From Treponema primitia ZAS-2 (GTDB lineage: Bacteria > Spirochaetota > Spirochaetia > Treponematales > Breznakiellaceae), in assembly GCF_000214375.1 (NCBI RefSeq), contig NC_015578.1, positions 3,224,001 through 3,288,000 of the forward strand: a stretch of DNA of 64,000 bases. Direction: 5' to 3'. This document shows, one piece after another, positions 48,325 through 53,840 of this stretch. Numbering within the stretch: position 1 is the stretch's first letter; each line of letters starts with the position of its first letter. The position numbers were made by a program, and so were the translations under genes. Below the pieces are notes generated by a model. The model was not told the origin of the DNA and made no database searches. It saw only the letters and a list, made by a program, of their open reading frames with translations.

Positions 48325-48367
48325 GGCGCCGTCGGGGAAGGGAATTCTCGAATAATTTTTTTGTAAC

Positions 48368-48560
48368 CTTGAAACGGATCTTTTGTTTCCTTATTGAATA
48401 GATCTCCTCCATACATTTCTCTTCATTGCCGCCGTCGTTTCCTCCTTTCGACGGCGGCTTTTTTTATGGTAACCAGCGGCGGCATTATTGCCGACCGCCA
48501 GCCTCTACCATGCCCGCCGTGGGCGAAAATGCTTCCGATACAGGCGAACCCAATTAAAGC
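48368..48560. repeat. 193-bp direct repeat, left copy
   Basis: Matches 53618-53810 at all but four positions, offset exactly 5250 bp. Two of the four differences are paired changes in the arms of a hairpin. The left copy carries only the 3' part of a small secreted-protein gene, joined to a DUF3786 pseudogene at 48560/48561. Confidence 0.95.
48428..48465 (+). terminator. tpx terminator in the left direct repeat
   Basis: GCCGCCGTCG (48428-48437) pairs perfectly with CGACGGCGGC (48449-48458), then seven Ts. The matching hairpin in the right copy has GCCGCCGCCG/CGGCGGCGG. Confidence 0.9.
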
Positions 48561-48968
48561 AGACTTTTTCTCATTGCAAAATTTTTGATAATCGGGACCA
48601 AAAACTTTTCCCAATAGGCGTGAGTTTAGCACATCGCTTTCATTATTTTCACGAAATACCTCATTTGAAAAACTTGAAAGTGTACAAAAATCGCAAAAAG
48701 GCTCAATACACGCTTCGGATAATACATAATAGCCCAAAACACTTTTTAAGTTATAATCAAATTCTTCCGTATTGCTTGGCCAAATAATTTTTTGTTCTGC
48801 GAGCTGAATTCCGTTTTTACTAACTAAATATATTCCACCTTAAAATTCAACCAAAACTTCACCCTCCGAAGTTTGTTTAATCTCAAGTCTCTTTGAGCTA
48901 TCTGAAAAATTATATTTTTGTAATAATTTTACAACCCATTTATATGTTTCTTCATGTCCCTTTTTCAT
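48561..48968 (-). pseudogene. DUF3786 paralogue, nonsense-mutated and 3'-truncated
   Basis: From the ATG at 48968 (GGAGGGG upstream) the frame reads MKKGHEETYKWVVKLLQKY, NFSDSSKRL, then stops at TAA (48840-48842). In the same frame it goes on as GIYLVSKNGIQLAEQKIIW, VLGYYVLSEACIEPFCDFC and FGPDYQKFCNEKKS. It is then cut by the left direct repeat. This parallels the first 130 residues of the intact DUF3786 gene at 51215-51850, so it is a decayed duplicate. Confidence 0.85.
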
Positions 48969-49020
48969 ATCCCCTCCATTTTCTTTGCACGCATTTTTTC
49001 TATTATCGCTGGTGTAGTAT

Positions 49021-49316
49021 CTATAGTTTATCTCTCGATTCCCTAATTTCGTCGTCATTGAATAAAAGGGCGCCAAAATAAGTAACGGTATCTTCTCCAT
49101 TGCTATAATTGATATCTGCCCGTTGTGTTAGTTCATTGACAAGAATCCCATAGCCTTCTATAAAATGATGTAATTTTTCCAGGAAACGGCAGGGCGAATT
49201 GGGGTAAGTACAGGTTTTGCATATACCGCAGCCTTATTAGACAATACAAGATAATTTTTCAGGTAAGGTTTCACTGCCGATTCCATATCTCGCGCAATCT
49301 GCTTGAAATCTACCAT
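49021..49316 (-). pseudogene. Frameshifted small gene of unknown family
   Basis: An ATG at 49316 opens MVDFKQIARDMESAVKPYLK and continues to AKPVLTPIRPAV. There the reading frame must shift to continue as FLEKLHHFIEGYGILVNELT and on to a stop at 49021. The combined product would be about 95 residues, acidic at the C-terminus. I do not recognise it. Low GC, like its surroundings. The true start and the frameshift position are uncertain. Confidence 0.4.
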
Positions 49317-49416
49317 AAATTTAATGATTGACAAAGATAATATACATATCATTCCTATAGTCATAATATGTATATTATCTTCAGATCGTCCTAGTCAGAT
49401 TGATTTTCAACAATGC

Positions 49417-49467
49417 TTGACAGTTTTGCAATGTATGATATACTCTAATAGACCAGTCGGTTTTATT
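49417..49467 (+). promoter_or_regulatory. Promoter and probable operator of the TetR gene
   Basis: TTGACA (49417-49422), 16 bp, TATACT (49439-49444). Directly downstream, AATAGACCAGTCGGTTTTATT (49447-49467) is an imperfect inverted repeat covering the start point. Autoregulation by the TetR protein would fit. Confidence 0.55.
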
Positions 49468-49503
49468 TGCCGCTGTAAATGCCTGTTTTAATGGAAAGAT
49501 TAT

Positions 49504-50073
49504 ATGGATCTGAATGCAAAAGGTTTAAAAGGCGAAAAGTCTAAAGTACAATTGATAGAATGTGCCGCCCGCTTATTTCTGGAAAATGGTTATAATGCAA
49601 CCGGAATAAACGAGATAATAACCAAAGCTGGTCTCTCCAAAGGGTCTTTCTATTTTTATTTTTCAAGTAAAAAAGAATTAGCTATATCTGTAACAGAATA
49701 TCATAGCCAAATGATACTAACCAAATTTTCCGGGATTGCACAAGGCAAAACGTGGGAAGATTTTATCGAAAAGCTGGTGGGTGGTATCGTTAAGAAAGCA
49801 AAACAGGGGGGAGTATATGGGTGCCCTTTGGCTGTATTGGGAATGGAAACCGCCTTTCTTGATCCTGACATTGCCGCAAAAAATCATGCGACTTTAAAAA
49901 GTGTGGCTGATATATTTGAAGATGTACTTAAAAGGTCAGGTTTCTCCAAAGCAAATGCAACCATTGCTGCAGAGCGTGCATTAGCCATATTCGAAGGGCA
50001 TTTGTTGCTTTACCGGTTAGGAAAAGATGGCAATGAATTAAAAAAAATTATAAGAGACTTAAAGGATTTGTAA
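49504..50073 (+). CDS. TetR/AcrR-family transcriptional regulator
   Basis: 189 residues. N-terminal helix-turn-helix: ECAARLFLENGYNATGINEI, ITKAGLSKGSFYFYFSSKKEL. The C-terminal ligand domain (about 75-189) is of the TetR_C type seen in YxaF/LmrA-like repressors (GCPLAVLGMETA, FEGHLLLYRLG). It precedes a QueG-like iron-sulfur protein and a DUF3786 gene on the same strand, so these are its probable targets together with itself. AT-rich, unlike the backbone. Confidence 0.92.
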   Translation: MDLNAKGLKGEKSKVQLIECAARLFLENGYNATGINEIITKAGLSKGSFYFYFSSKKELAISVTEYHSQMILTKFSGIAQGKTWEDFIEKLVGGIVKKAKQGGVYGCPLAVLGMETAFLDPDIAAKNHATLKSVADIFEDVLKRSGFSKANATIAAERALAIFEGHLLLYRLGKDGNELKKIIRDLKDL

Positions 50074-50121
50074 ATTAATAAAATTAATCCGGGCTGACTC
50101 TAAGAATAAGGAGAAGTGAAT

Positions 50122-51171
50122 ATGATTAATGAAAAATTAATAAAAGAGAAAGCACTAGAACTCGGTTATGAAGATTGTGGTATTATAAATATTTCTGAAA
50201 TTAATGATTATGCTGAAAAAATAAATGATCGTATTATAAAATTTCCCAATACCAAAAATACTTTAGAAAAATTAAATCGATTTACAAATTTGAATGAGCG
50301 TTTTCCATGGGCAAAATCAATTATTGTTTGTGTGCGAAAATATGGTAAATACAGTATACCGAATAATTTAAAAAATTTAATCGCTAAATATTATTTAGTA
50401 GACGGAAGAATAAATGAACAATCTATAGATTTTCAGGCAAGCATTGAATTTGAAACGTTTTTAAATAAAGTAGGTCTGAAAACAGCTACGGAAAGAAAAT
50501 TTGGACTAACCGCACTGAGATGGGCGGCATTTAAGGCAGGGCTTGGGATAATTAGAAGGAATAATTTCTTTTATACAGAAAAAAGTGGTTCTTGGGTATA
50601 TTTAGAGGCATGGCTGATAGATTGTGATATGGAAATGAAAAACAATGACAATTCAAAACCCTGTCCAAATAACTGTAACAAATGCATAAAAGCCTGTCCA
50701 ACAAAATCACTTCATGAGCCTTATTCTATGGACCGTTCAACTTGTGTATCATGCCTTACTACCTTTGAAGGGTGGGATATGAGTAAAGAGTCAAATAATC
50801 ATAATATTGGGAATTGGATATATGGTTGTGATGTCTGTCAGGATATTTGCCCCTTTAATAAAAACAAATGGATGGAAAATGAACAATTCCCACGATTAAA
50901 TGAATTGGCAGAACATATATCATTAGAAAAAATAATCGAAATGGATTATACCTATTTAGAAGGTATTATATCTTCAAAATTTTTTTATATAGGTAAGGGC
51001 GATGTATATAAGTGGAAAACAAATGCTCTTAACGCAATGTTGAATAATTATAATGAAAATTATTTATTTTATATAAGAAAGGCATGTAACGATTCTAACG
51101 AACATGTACGTAATATGGCAGAATGGGTATTAGATAAAATTACAAATTATGTACCATCCATGACAGAGTAA
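50122..51171 (+). CDS. QueG-like double [4Fe-4S] protein
   Basis: 349 residues from ATG 50122, chosen for AAGGAG eight bases upstream. Architecture of epoxyqueuosine-reductase-like proteins: an N-terminal DUF1730-like region (WAKSIIVCVRKYGKY), a middle (ERKFGLTALRWAAFKAGLG), two ferredoxin-type clusters (PCPNNCNKCIKACP, CVSC, then CDVCQDICPFN) and a C-terminal helical-repeat tail. QueG is a cobalamin-dependent reductase. This low-GC relative sits with a TetR regulator and not with tRNA-modification genes, so it may act on something else. AT-rich composition suggests transfer. Confidence 0.8.
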   Translation: MINEKLIKEKALELGYEDCGIINISEINDYAEKINDRIIKFPNTKNTLEKLNRFTNLNERFPWAKSIIVCVRKYGKYSIPNNLKNLIAKYYLVDGRINEQSIDFQASIEFETFLNKVGLKTATERKFGLTALRWAAFKAGLGIIRRNNFFYTEKSGSWVYLEAWLIDCDMEMKNNDNSKPCPNNCNKCIKACPTKSLHEPYSMDRSTCVSCLTTFEGWDMSKESNNHNIGNWIYGCDVCQDICPFNKNKWMENEQFPRLNELAEHISLEKIIEMDYTYLEGIISSKFFYIGKGDVYKWKTNALNAMLNNYNENYLFYIRKACNDSNEHVRNMAEWVLDKITNYVPSMTE

Positions 51172-51214
51172 ATTGAAATATTTACAATTTTATTAATATT
51201 TTTTGGGGGATTTG

Positions 51215-51850
51215 ATGGAAAAAGGATGCGTAAAAACTTATAATTGGGTAGTAAGCTTGTTGAATAATTGTGATTTTTCTGATAGCGCTAAAAGGCTTGG
51301 ATTAGAGCAAATCTCAGAAAACGCTGTATTAATTAATTTTTTTGATCGGATATATAAAGTCTCAAAAAACAATATAGAACTTATTGATAAAAAAACAATA
51401 TGGACAACAGCATCAGAAGATTATGAATATGACTTAAAAAGCGTATTAGGATATTATATATTGTCAGATGCAAATATAGAACCACTATATGAATATTGCG
51501 CCCTGGGACAATTTTCCGGCGGTGTATTTCGGGAAAGCAGTAGTGTGGTATCAATGGCAAATAAAAAATTTGCAGATACATTTGGTAATGATTATGACAA
51601 ATTTAAAAAAATAATGAATATGTTTGGCATAGAATATGAAGAAGGAAACAGGGATGGAAAGTATAGTTGGAATTATAAAATATTACCCAAAATACCGATC
51701 AAATTAGTATTTTATGAAGGGGATGATGAGTTCCCTTCAAAATTACAAATTCTCTATGATAAAAATGCAATAAAAATATATAATTTTGAACAATTAGCAG
51801 TTTTACATGGTATAATTACTCAAACAATACTATCTTTAGGCAAATCATAA
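51215..51850 (+). CDS. DUF3786 protein
   Basis: 211 residues from the ATG at 51215, which follows GGGGGA; an upstream TTG in frame is less likely. DUF3786 is a family of unknown function found mostly in anaerobes. Family-like features: an early RIYKVSKNNIELI strand pair, SVLGYYILSDANIEPL, SGGVFRE, and IPIKLVFYEGDDEFPSKLQI near the C-terminus. It is the third gene of the TetR/QueG-like unit (31-44 bp gap). A dead paralogue lies 2.2 kb upstream on the other strand. No membrane segments. Confidence 0.8.
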   Translation: MEKGCVKTYNWVVSLLNNCDFSDSAKRLGLEQISENAVLINFFDRIYKVSKNNIELIDKKTIWTTASEDYEYDLKSVLGYYILSDANIEPLYEYCALGQFSGGVFRESSSVVSMANKKFADTFGNDYDKFKKIMNMFGIEYEEGNRDGKYSWNYKILPKIPIKLVFYEGDDEFPSKLQILYDKNAIKIYNFEQLAVLHGIITQTILSLGKS

Positions 51851-51870
51851 AATTGAAAATTTATTTTACC

Positions 51871-52821
51871 TTACACCGGCAACAATGCCGCTTCATGCCA
51901 ATTGTCCGGGAAGCCCATACTTTTAATCAACTCAGGTTTGGGGAAGGCGGCATTGTCCGGGTGGTTTTTGATTATATCCTCCAGGTTACAAAAAAACCGG
52001 GAGAAATTAGTATCTTCCAGCAGATACCGGAGCGCAATGACTGCGGCGAACAAGTCCTGTTTCCCGTAGGCGCAATCACCATTTGCCAGGCGGGGTACGC
52101 CAAGTTCCTTATGGAGCTGTAAATACGGCAGTTTGCCTTTGTTTACCGTATAGTTATACAAGCGGTCATTATGGGCGCAGGTATTACGGAACAATACCAA
52201 AAGGCTGATGATTGCGGATAACTGCGGTGTACTGGTTAAAGAGGTGTAGTTTTTGCTGATTTTTGTTTGCAGCAGCATGGGAAGCATATCAAGCATTTTT
52301 GATACATTGCCGAAGGTCAGTTTCCGCATCAAGACCCAGAGGGGGATATTCTCGTGGTTTACAATATAGTGATTCAGATTAACCGCATTGAAGTTGGCGG
52401 TAATAACCCGGTTAATTTCGCCTAACAGCCTGAATATCTCCGATATTTTTTTGGGGTCCTGGTAATCATAGTTATACAGGCTAGTATAGGCGTCGATTGA
52501 GTTACCGTGTTCCTCGCTAAAATAATAGGATATATGGGATTTGAGTTTTTGCTCCACTTTCAGGAGGTACTTGAAAAATAACTCCCGGAGGGCTTCATCG
52601 AAATAATACAAATTTTCAATGTCGGTAAAGGTTGCGCCGCTTTTGTACTGTCTGGTAACGGTGTCTTTGAAGGGGGTTTTATAGCCGTTTATGAGGGAGA
52701 AATAGCCGATTTGGGTAAGGATGTCTATAGCATGAGCTTCATCGGGTATGGCAAGACCCTTTTCGTCCCGAAGTTTGCGTATCTGCTGTTCATAGGTTAA
52801 AAAGGGCTTTTTTTCCGGCAT
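51871..52821 (-). CDS. Abi_2 (AbiD/AbiF) family abortive-infection protein
   Basis: 316 residues. Abi_2 proteins protect lactococci and other bacteria from phages by abortive infection and probably act as HEPN-type RNA-targeting factors. Visible: N-terminal PFLTYEQQIRKLRDEKGL, IGYFSLINGYKTPF, FDEALRELFFKYLLKVEQKLKS-like helices, WVLMRKLTFGNVSKM and the R-N-T-C-A-H-N-D-R-L-Y-N motif, which matches the R-x4-H pattern of HEPN nucleases. It has intermediate GC, higher than the DUF3786 unit with which it converges. A terminator-like hairpin lies just upstream. No partner gene is visible. Confidence 0.9.
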   Translation of the reverse strand: MPEKKPFLTYEQQIRKLRDEKGLAIPDEAHAIDILTQIGYFSLINGYKTPFKDTVTRQYKSGATFTDIENLYYFDEALRELFFKYLLKVEQKLKSHISYYFSEEHGNSIDAYTSLYNYDYQDPKKISEIFRLLGEINRVITANFNAVNLNHYIVNHENIPLWVLMRKLTFGNVSKMLDMLPMLLQTKISKNYTSLTSTPQLSAIISLLVLFRNTCAHNDRLYNYTVNKGKLPYLQLHKELGVPRLANGDCAYGKQDLFAAVIALRYLLEDTNFSRFFCNLEDIIKNHPDNAAFPKPELIKSMGFPDNWHEAALLPV

Positions 52822-52835
52822 GGTATCCTCTGGTT

Positions 52836-52864
52836 AAAAAAAAGGAGCCCTTCAGGGCCCCTCC
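52836..52864 (-). terminator. Terminator-like hairpin upstream of the Abi_2 gene
   Basis: Leftward, GGAG-type arms (52861-52864 with 52844-52847) and AGGG/CCCT form a bulged stem followed by eight Ts. It lies 14 bases before the Abi_2 start codon, so transcripts entering from the right would stop here. Confidence 0.5.
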
Positions 52865-53159
52865 GGTCGCCTTGGTTAATAACCTCCGCAACACGATCAC
52901 TACTAAAAATATACAGGGTTTGCCCCTTGCTTGTCAAGGAAAAAAATAAATGCCTTTTCCCTTTATATGTGTGGGCTGCACGGGTTTGACGTTGATGGTC
53001 ATTTCGTTACCTTTTTCTAAAACATACCAGGTTTTGGGGAGACAGGCAAGCCAAAATCCTCCATTTTGCGCCTTTGCGGCAGAAAAGGTCAAGAAGGTCA
53101 ATATTCGGGGAGATTTTGACGGTATCGGGATATACCGTCCTGTGGAAGGAGCTAGATTT

Positions 53160-53425
53160 ATGAAGACGGTACAGGTCCCCGGATTACCGATGATCCGGAG
53201 GGGAACCTCAGCCTTTGGCTTCGGCGGAATGTTCCGGCTTTGAAGGATTCTCTTGAGGTATCGAAAGAAATTCATGCTATACACTTAAAGGTCCAGGACG
53301 AAAATGAGGGGTTATCTGTTGATGAGATTAACCACAAGGCAGAGGTTACTTTGGCTTCCTGGGGGATTTCGCTTTGTCGGGATAGGACGGGACAGGGGAA
53401 GATTGGGGCTGTGGCGGAGGTATAG
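53160..53425 (+). pseudogene. Frameshifted small gene of unknown family
   Basis: GGAAGGAG precedes an ATG at 53160 that opens MKTVQVPGLP. A shift to another frame then gives a sensible hydrophilic protein: DDPEGNLSLWLRRNVPALKD, SLEVSKEIHAIHLKVQDENE and GLSVDEINHKAEVTLASW. Neither frame alone makes a whole protein. I do not recognise the family. The rest of 52870-53160 and 53430-53617 shows nothing else I can support. Confidence 0.35.
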
Positions 53426-53617
53426 GATTAGCCATACGCATAAAAACTCTCCTGTAAGGTAGCTGCTTTCACAACGATTACGAGAGGATTGTGGCAGAAG
53501 AGGCTAATCCTCTCAAGTTAAGGGAACCCCTATTTATGCCTCGGATTGGGCAGGTTACTTTAGCTCTATAAAGAGGCTGCCTGGTGATGGCGAAGTATAA
53601 AACAACCTATTATAGGA

Positions 53618-53810
53618 CTTGAAACGGATCTTTTGTTTCCTTATTGAATAGATCTCCTCCATACATTTCTCTTCATTGCCGCCGCCGTTTCCTCCTTTCG
53701 GCGGCGGTTTTTTTTATGGTAACCAGCGGCGGCATTATTGCCGACCGCCAGCCTCTACCATGCCCGCCGTGGGCGAAAATGCTTCCAATACAGGCGAACC
53801 CAATTAAAGC
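53618..53810. repeat. 193-bp direct repeat, right copy
   Basis: Partner of 48368-48560 (four differences). This copy contains most of an intact 55-codon gene and a hairpin at 53678-53715 whose arms carry the compensating C/G changes. Confidence 0.95.
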
Positions 53811-53840
53811 CGCCATAACGACAATCTTTGTATATTTCAT
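53673..53840 (-). CDS. Small secreted glycine/histidine and arginine-rich protein
   Basis: 55 residues beginning MKYTKIVVMAALIGFACIGS, a signal-peptide-like start with a possible cut after IFA. The mature part starts HGGHGRGWR and ends in a basic tail (ERRKRRRQ) coded by the terminator hairpin region. The HGGHG stretch might bind metal. The left direct repeat holds the same gene without its first 13 codons. The start has no clear ribosome-binding site. It could be a relic carried by the repeat; expression is uncertain. Confidence 0.4.
   Translation of the reverse strand: MKYTKIVVMAALIGFACIGSIFAHGGHGRGWRSAIMPPLVTIKKTAAERRKRRRQ
53678..53715 (+). terminator. Hairpin terminator in the right direct repeat
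   Basis: GCCGCCGCCG pairs with CGGCGGCGG, followed by eight Ts, read rightward. In this copy no intact rightward gene precedes it. Confidence 0.75.

Follow-up and report, generated by a model that had tools for sequence, protein, structure and literature searches.

Direct repeats around an accessory block of Treponema primitia ZAS-2 are probably copies of a conserved small-RNA gene with an ECF-type promoter

The window analysed here, i.e., a stretch of 64,000 nucleotides from Treponema primitia ZAS-2 (contig NC_015578.1, positions 3,224,001 to 3,288,000), contains two direct repeats of 193 bp on the plus strand, a left copy at 48368-48560 and a right copy at 53618-53810. The two are identical at 189 of their 193 positions (97.9%) and offset by 5,250 bp, exactly as the original prediction had described them, and for a 21-mer taken from the repeat 0 chance matches are expected within the window. 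The search for further copies that had been proposed at the same time was run on the whole genome of 4,059,867 bp and returned no third copy, hence no scattering; with just two copies in the genome, transposon ends or a scattered repeat were ruled out. The four differences between the copies (left/right base) lie at 48435 (T/C), 48451 (A/G), 48458 (C/T) and 48537 (G/A), and three of them fall in a hairpin, the stem pairing being preserved in all three. Those at 48435 and 48451 together exchange a T-A for a C-G pair within the stem, as had been recognized, whereas the one at 48458, which had been left unplaced, turns an outer G-C pair into G-U.

The block enclosed by the repeats (48561-53617, 5,057 bp) has a G+C content of 36.6% against 51.6% for the window, in line with the AT-richness ascribed to it, and amounts to 32% up to 51850 and 45.6% thereafter. 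From left to right, it carries a DUF3786 pseudogene (about 48561-48970, limits approximate, minus strand), a TetR-family regulator (49504-50073, plus strand; Pfam PF00440 and PF21993), a QueG-like double 4Fe-4S cluster protein (Fer4_16; 50116-51171, plus strand; PF13484), an intact DUF3786 protein (51203-51850, plus strand; PF12654) and an Abi_2/AbiD-like protein (51871-52821, minus strand; PF07751). Pfam agrees with the TetR, QueG-like, DUF3786 and Abi_2 assignments made earlier, and PADLOC also returned AbiD for the last of them. The predicted lack of an integrase was confirmed among the block ORFs tested, which include no integrase or other recombinase of the kind an integrative island would carry and no transposase, relaxase or replication gene; integrase remnants were not found either. 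The block is a mosaic, the separate parts of which match different, scattered places in relatives. The Abi_2/AbiD gene with about 120 bp upstream (51871-52940) has a counterpart in one relative (G011), with 81% identity along 1.1 kb, and also a match in another (G004); it is a travelling accessory gene. Towards its right end the block has short stretches (within 53120-53285) that share 84-92% identity with places in G003 and G011, one of these adjoining a transposase-like reading frame; they are possibly the remains of a dispersed repeat or of a pseudogene. The block is ordinary accessory DNA, and the interesting part of the locus is the RNA.

When relatives were searched with the right copy, only the first ~100 bp of the repeat proved to be conserved. 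This part is an intergenic element that occurs once in each of the five genus relatives and also, singly, in several other genera. The aligned relatives have in common the box TGTAACC, a GTT 16 nt downstream, the motif CTCC and a strong terminator hairpin, the loop of which is TTTCCTCCTTT. The idea of a small conserved minus-strand ORF (MEEI...) was ruled out, as stops break its frame in relatives. A covariance model, whose match on the left copy spans 48355-48467, detected the element in 84 of 200 family genomes and in 37 of 57 genera, with a single match in 80 of the 84; many of the 116 genomes without a match are incomplete. In a sample of the phylum the element was located mainly within the family, with seven weak matches outside it, and the sole one of these that was read closely (G432) displays the same TGTAACC-N16-GTT arrangement. 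Besides, a DNA pattern built from the same parts and run against about 85,000 named species hit 26 contigs, of which a few would be expected by chance according to our own estimate, and 24 of the 26 are Treponema, Spirochaetaceae or Spirochaetia records.

The terminator hairpin of the left copy occupies 48428-48458 (plus strand), its stem being formed by 48428-48437 and 48449-48458, and that of the right copy lies at 53678-53708 (plus strand). Across 31 aligned members, 99.7% of the cells of this 10-bp stem are paired and two-sided changes occur at eight of the ten pairs, in an alignment that was fitted to the model structure and thus favours it. The shuffle control gave means of 92% paired cells and of 3.5 pairs with two-sided changes, and none of the 500 shuffles reached either observed value. 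The loop is nearly invariant while the stem covaries. Preservation of the terminator between the two copies, pointed out in the original prediction, holds as far as pairing is concerned, but such compensating changes are typical of the whole family and are nothing special about the block.

Upstream of the hairpin, the left copy has a -35-like box, TGTAACC (48362-48368, plus strand), which is conserved in relatives, and exactly 16 nt after it a -10-like GTT (48385-48387, plus strand). The motif TGTAACN-N16-GTT, with exact spacing, was observed in 22 of the 27 aligned members carrying TGTAAC, and also in the divergent members of G011 and G034, the GTT being less conserved than the -35 box. TGTAAC is missing from the members of G020 and G033, in which sigma-70-type promoters seem to replace the ECF-type one. 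Such -35 and -10 elements of ECF type at a fixed spacing are those expected of an ECF-sigma-dependent gene, and regulation of the element by an ECF sigma factor appears likely on these grounds. The same -35 box and spacing are present in ECF16-type promoters, for which a consensus tGTAACc-N16-CGAA and a start 6 bp after the -10 have been reported (PMC3420878; also PMC8315932); their -10 is however CGAA, and that of the element GTT. Under the ECF16 start rule, the transcript would begin near 48394. With the start taken 6-8 nt after the -10 and the end at the T-run, the positions of promoter and terminator predict an sRNA of about 70 nt (48394-48465, plus strand), with a CTCCTCC motif resembling an anti-Shine-Dalgarno sequence near its predicted 5′ end (48404-48410, plus strand). 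Since the strict pattern TTGTAACC-N15-17-GTT was not enriched genome-wide (6 matches versus 7 in the reversed control), no wider regulon is supported.

The two copies differ in what surrounds them. The left one, which comprises the predicted sRNA gene body and its 3′ flank, alone keeps the TGTAACC box found in relatives, whereas in the right one the body is preceded by ATAGGAC. At the opposite edge, the start of a truncated secreted-protein gene (MKYTKIVVMAALIGFACIGSIFAHGGHGRGW...; 53709-53840, minus strand) runs across the right end of the right copy, and tblastn matched its first 31 residues to the N-terminal ends of open frames in G017 and G004 that are 134-142 aa long. In the left copy the first nine codons of this gene are missing, and its right edge abuts the broken DUF3786 pseudogene, as befits the rearrangement joint that had been suspected there. 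The G017/G004-type protein, of which the window holds the start only, is an uncharacterised secreted protein of about 130-140 aa with a signal peptide and a HGHGRGR-like stretch; no Pfam family was found for the G017 member. Because the left copy has the ancestral left side and the right copy the ancestral 3′ flank, one ancestral sRNA locus must have lain between the present outer flanks. Gain of the block, which had been proposed together with its possible loss, is hence upheld by the polarity of the joints as an insertion into one ancestral site. None of the genus relatives has the present gene order. The 5,057-bp accessory insert would have split the locus, presumably in a single event, and the 193-bp gene body would have been duplicated in the process. 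The left copy, having kept the promoter, is probably the working gene, and the right copy, because its -35 box is lost, is probably promoterless and silent. The 193-bp direct repeats could in turn support loss of the block by homologous recombination.

The 193 bp were either duplicated at insertion or brought along with the insert, break repair and single-crossover integration being the leading candidates for the mechanism of entry. In the former case, which is a serious possibility although we would not give it even chances, break repair or template switching would have brought in foreign DNA and given rise to a second 193-bp copy, much as in a target duplication of unusual length, without any recombinase or homology. 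This is consistent with joints that have only about 1 bp in common and fall within unrelated features, a gene in one case and a promoter in the other, as well as with the mosaic nature of the block; such an event and its intermediates are however invisible from one genome. Somewhat less likely, in our opinion, is the integration by single-crossover homologous recombination of a DNA circle carrying a promoterless 193-bp fragment of the sRNA gene. It would yield the observed topology, with the native left flank at the left copy and the native right flank at the right copy, and the 2% divergence could then reflect the donor's own alleles, but it requires a donor with a broken sRNA fragment, and the block showed no replicon gene. 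Finally, it is improbable that a site-specific mobile island, since deprived of its integrase, entered at the sRNA gene and that the repeats are its attachment sites: direct repeats overlapping a small-RNA gene at the ends of accessory DNA, the low G+C content and the defence-like Abi_2/AbiD gene would suit such an island, but an attachment core of 193 bp would be long, the ORFs tested include none of the genes it would need (integrase, relaxase, replication), the left joint cuts the DUF3786 gene, the G+C content is not uniform along the block (32% in one part versus 46% in the other), and sRNA copies bracketing DNA as here were not found in the other two-copy genomes examined (G151, G112 and G096), the G151 pair being divergent paralogues. 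The locus is also a reminder that what looks like the end of a mobile element, a repeat flanking accessory DNA, can instead be a functional gene present in duplicate.

The neighbours of the element vary between genomes (rluA, lepA-like, tpx and outer-membrane genes). In six genomes (G003, G004, G005, G025, G034 and G020) it precedes a co-directional gltB by roughly 100 bp, and in G001-G004 and G012 it adjoins a divergent rluA. An rluA leader was ruled out, as several genera have no rluA beside the element, and so was a gltB leader, given the promoter-like sequence of gltB itself and the varying neighbours. It is thus unlikely that the hairpin merely terminates some adjoining gene, or belongs to a gltB leader, and that there is no separate sRNA: the six gltB arrangements favour this explanation, but the flanking genes change while the element stays, a sigma-70-like promoter can be read between the hairpin and the gltB start, gltB lies without the element at ~700 kb in the present genome (where rluA is 5.5 kb to the left), and the conserved TGTAACC-N16-GTT is located about 100 bp ahead of the terminator end. 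Since its neighbours vary, gltB has a promoter-like sequence of its own and gltB here is without it, the element is best considered as an independent gene, with the promoter, the terminator and the conservation as a unit that, judged from sequence, characterize an intrinsically terminated, trans-acting sRNA. Our preferred reading, which we regard as probable, is that both repeats are copies of one conserved, independent small-RNA gene, which has an ECF-type promoter and a transcript of ~70 nt and the locus of which was split by the 5,057-bp insert with duplication of 193 bp. Hence, the anonymous terminator repeat of the original prediction would instead be a small-RNA gene, conserved and equipped with an ECF-type promoter, that is present in two non-equivalent copies. 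The call of this previously uncatalogued gene, conserved across termite-gut spirochaetes, is strong on sequence grounds, and a putative function can be proposed for it.

According to this proposal, the transcript would expose two CU-rich anti-Shine-Dalgarno motifs, the first near its 5′ end and the second in the loop of the terminator, and would likely act by base-pairing with the Shine-Dalgarno regions of target mRNAs. Literature searches retrieved no small-RNA study of termite-gut treponemes. In Rfam, no family reached its cut-off for the element, the best sub-threshold matches being LhrC (32.3 bits versus a cut-off of 110), ar14 (25.5 versus 58.8) and sX13 (22.1 versus 50), with CcsR1 further down. 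LhrC of Listeria and sX13 of Xanthomonas, the best and third-best matches over the whole element, are sRNAs acting through C-rich loops; with scores below the cut-offs, a relationship by descent cannot be claimed. The sigma-E-dependent enterobacterial sRNAs MicA and RybB are, like the element, short and stand-alone, with an ECF-type promoter and an intrinsic terminator, but differ from it in promoter motif and RNA sequence. The alphaproteobacterial ar14/NfeR1 and CcsR RNAs resemble the element in that a CU-rich anti-Shine-Dalgarno motif is unpaired, the stems vary and the small RNA is encoded by a single gene (PMC10746234). Members of ar14 act via CCUCCUCCC anti-Shine-Dalgarno motifs (PMC10746234), carried on each of three hairpins, whereas the element has one hairpin and one unpaired motif.

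A candidate regulator was found in the same genome. Sigma70_r2 matches ten of its genes, and three of the proteins (186-188 aa) are of ECF type. One of the three ECF genes, at C1:2659440 downstream of cysS, is preceded by the sRNA-type promoter motif, TGTAACG-N16-GTT (C1:~2659370, just upstream), and followed by a zf-HC2 anti-sigma gene, after which stands a gene whose product begins like a signal peptide and has no Pfam match. This sigma/anti-sigma locus is a candidate autoregulated system, and its sigma factor a candidate regulator of the sRNA, through a suggestive link that comes from one gene in one genome. More broadly, and tentatively, the family-wide RNA of termite-gut (and some other) treponemes might act as the RNA component of an autoregulated ECF sigma/anti-sigma system, repress many mRNAs via anti-Shine-Dalgarno loops and have spawned paralogues with the same promoter (G096, G112 and G151). 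As the RNA is recognisable in dozens of genera from its sequence alone, and both a promoter prediction and a candidate regulator are at hand, it offers a direct way into sRNA control in uncultured or hard-to-grow termite-gut symbionts. In some genomes, second copies or paralogues of the element stand behind the same TGTAAC-type promoter. The G151 copies (C71:18487-18608 and C71:20696-20802) are divergent paralogues 2.2 kb apart, one of them without the CCUCC loop; in G096 the second copy is divergent, and in G112 the copies belong to a ~1.9-kb stretch that is present on two contigs and 92% alike between them.
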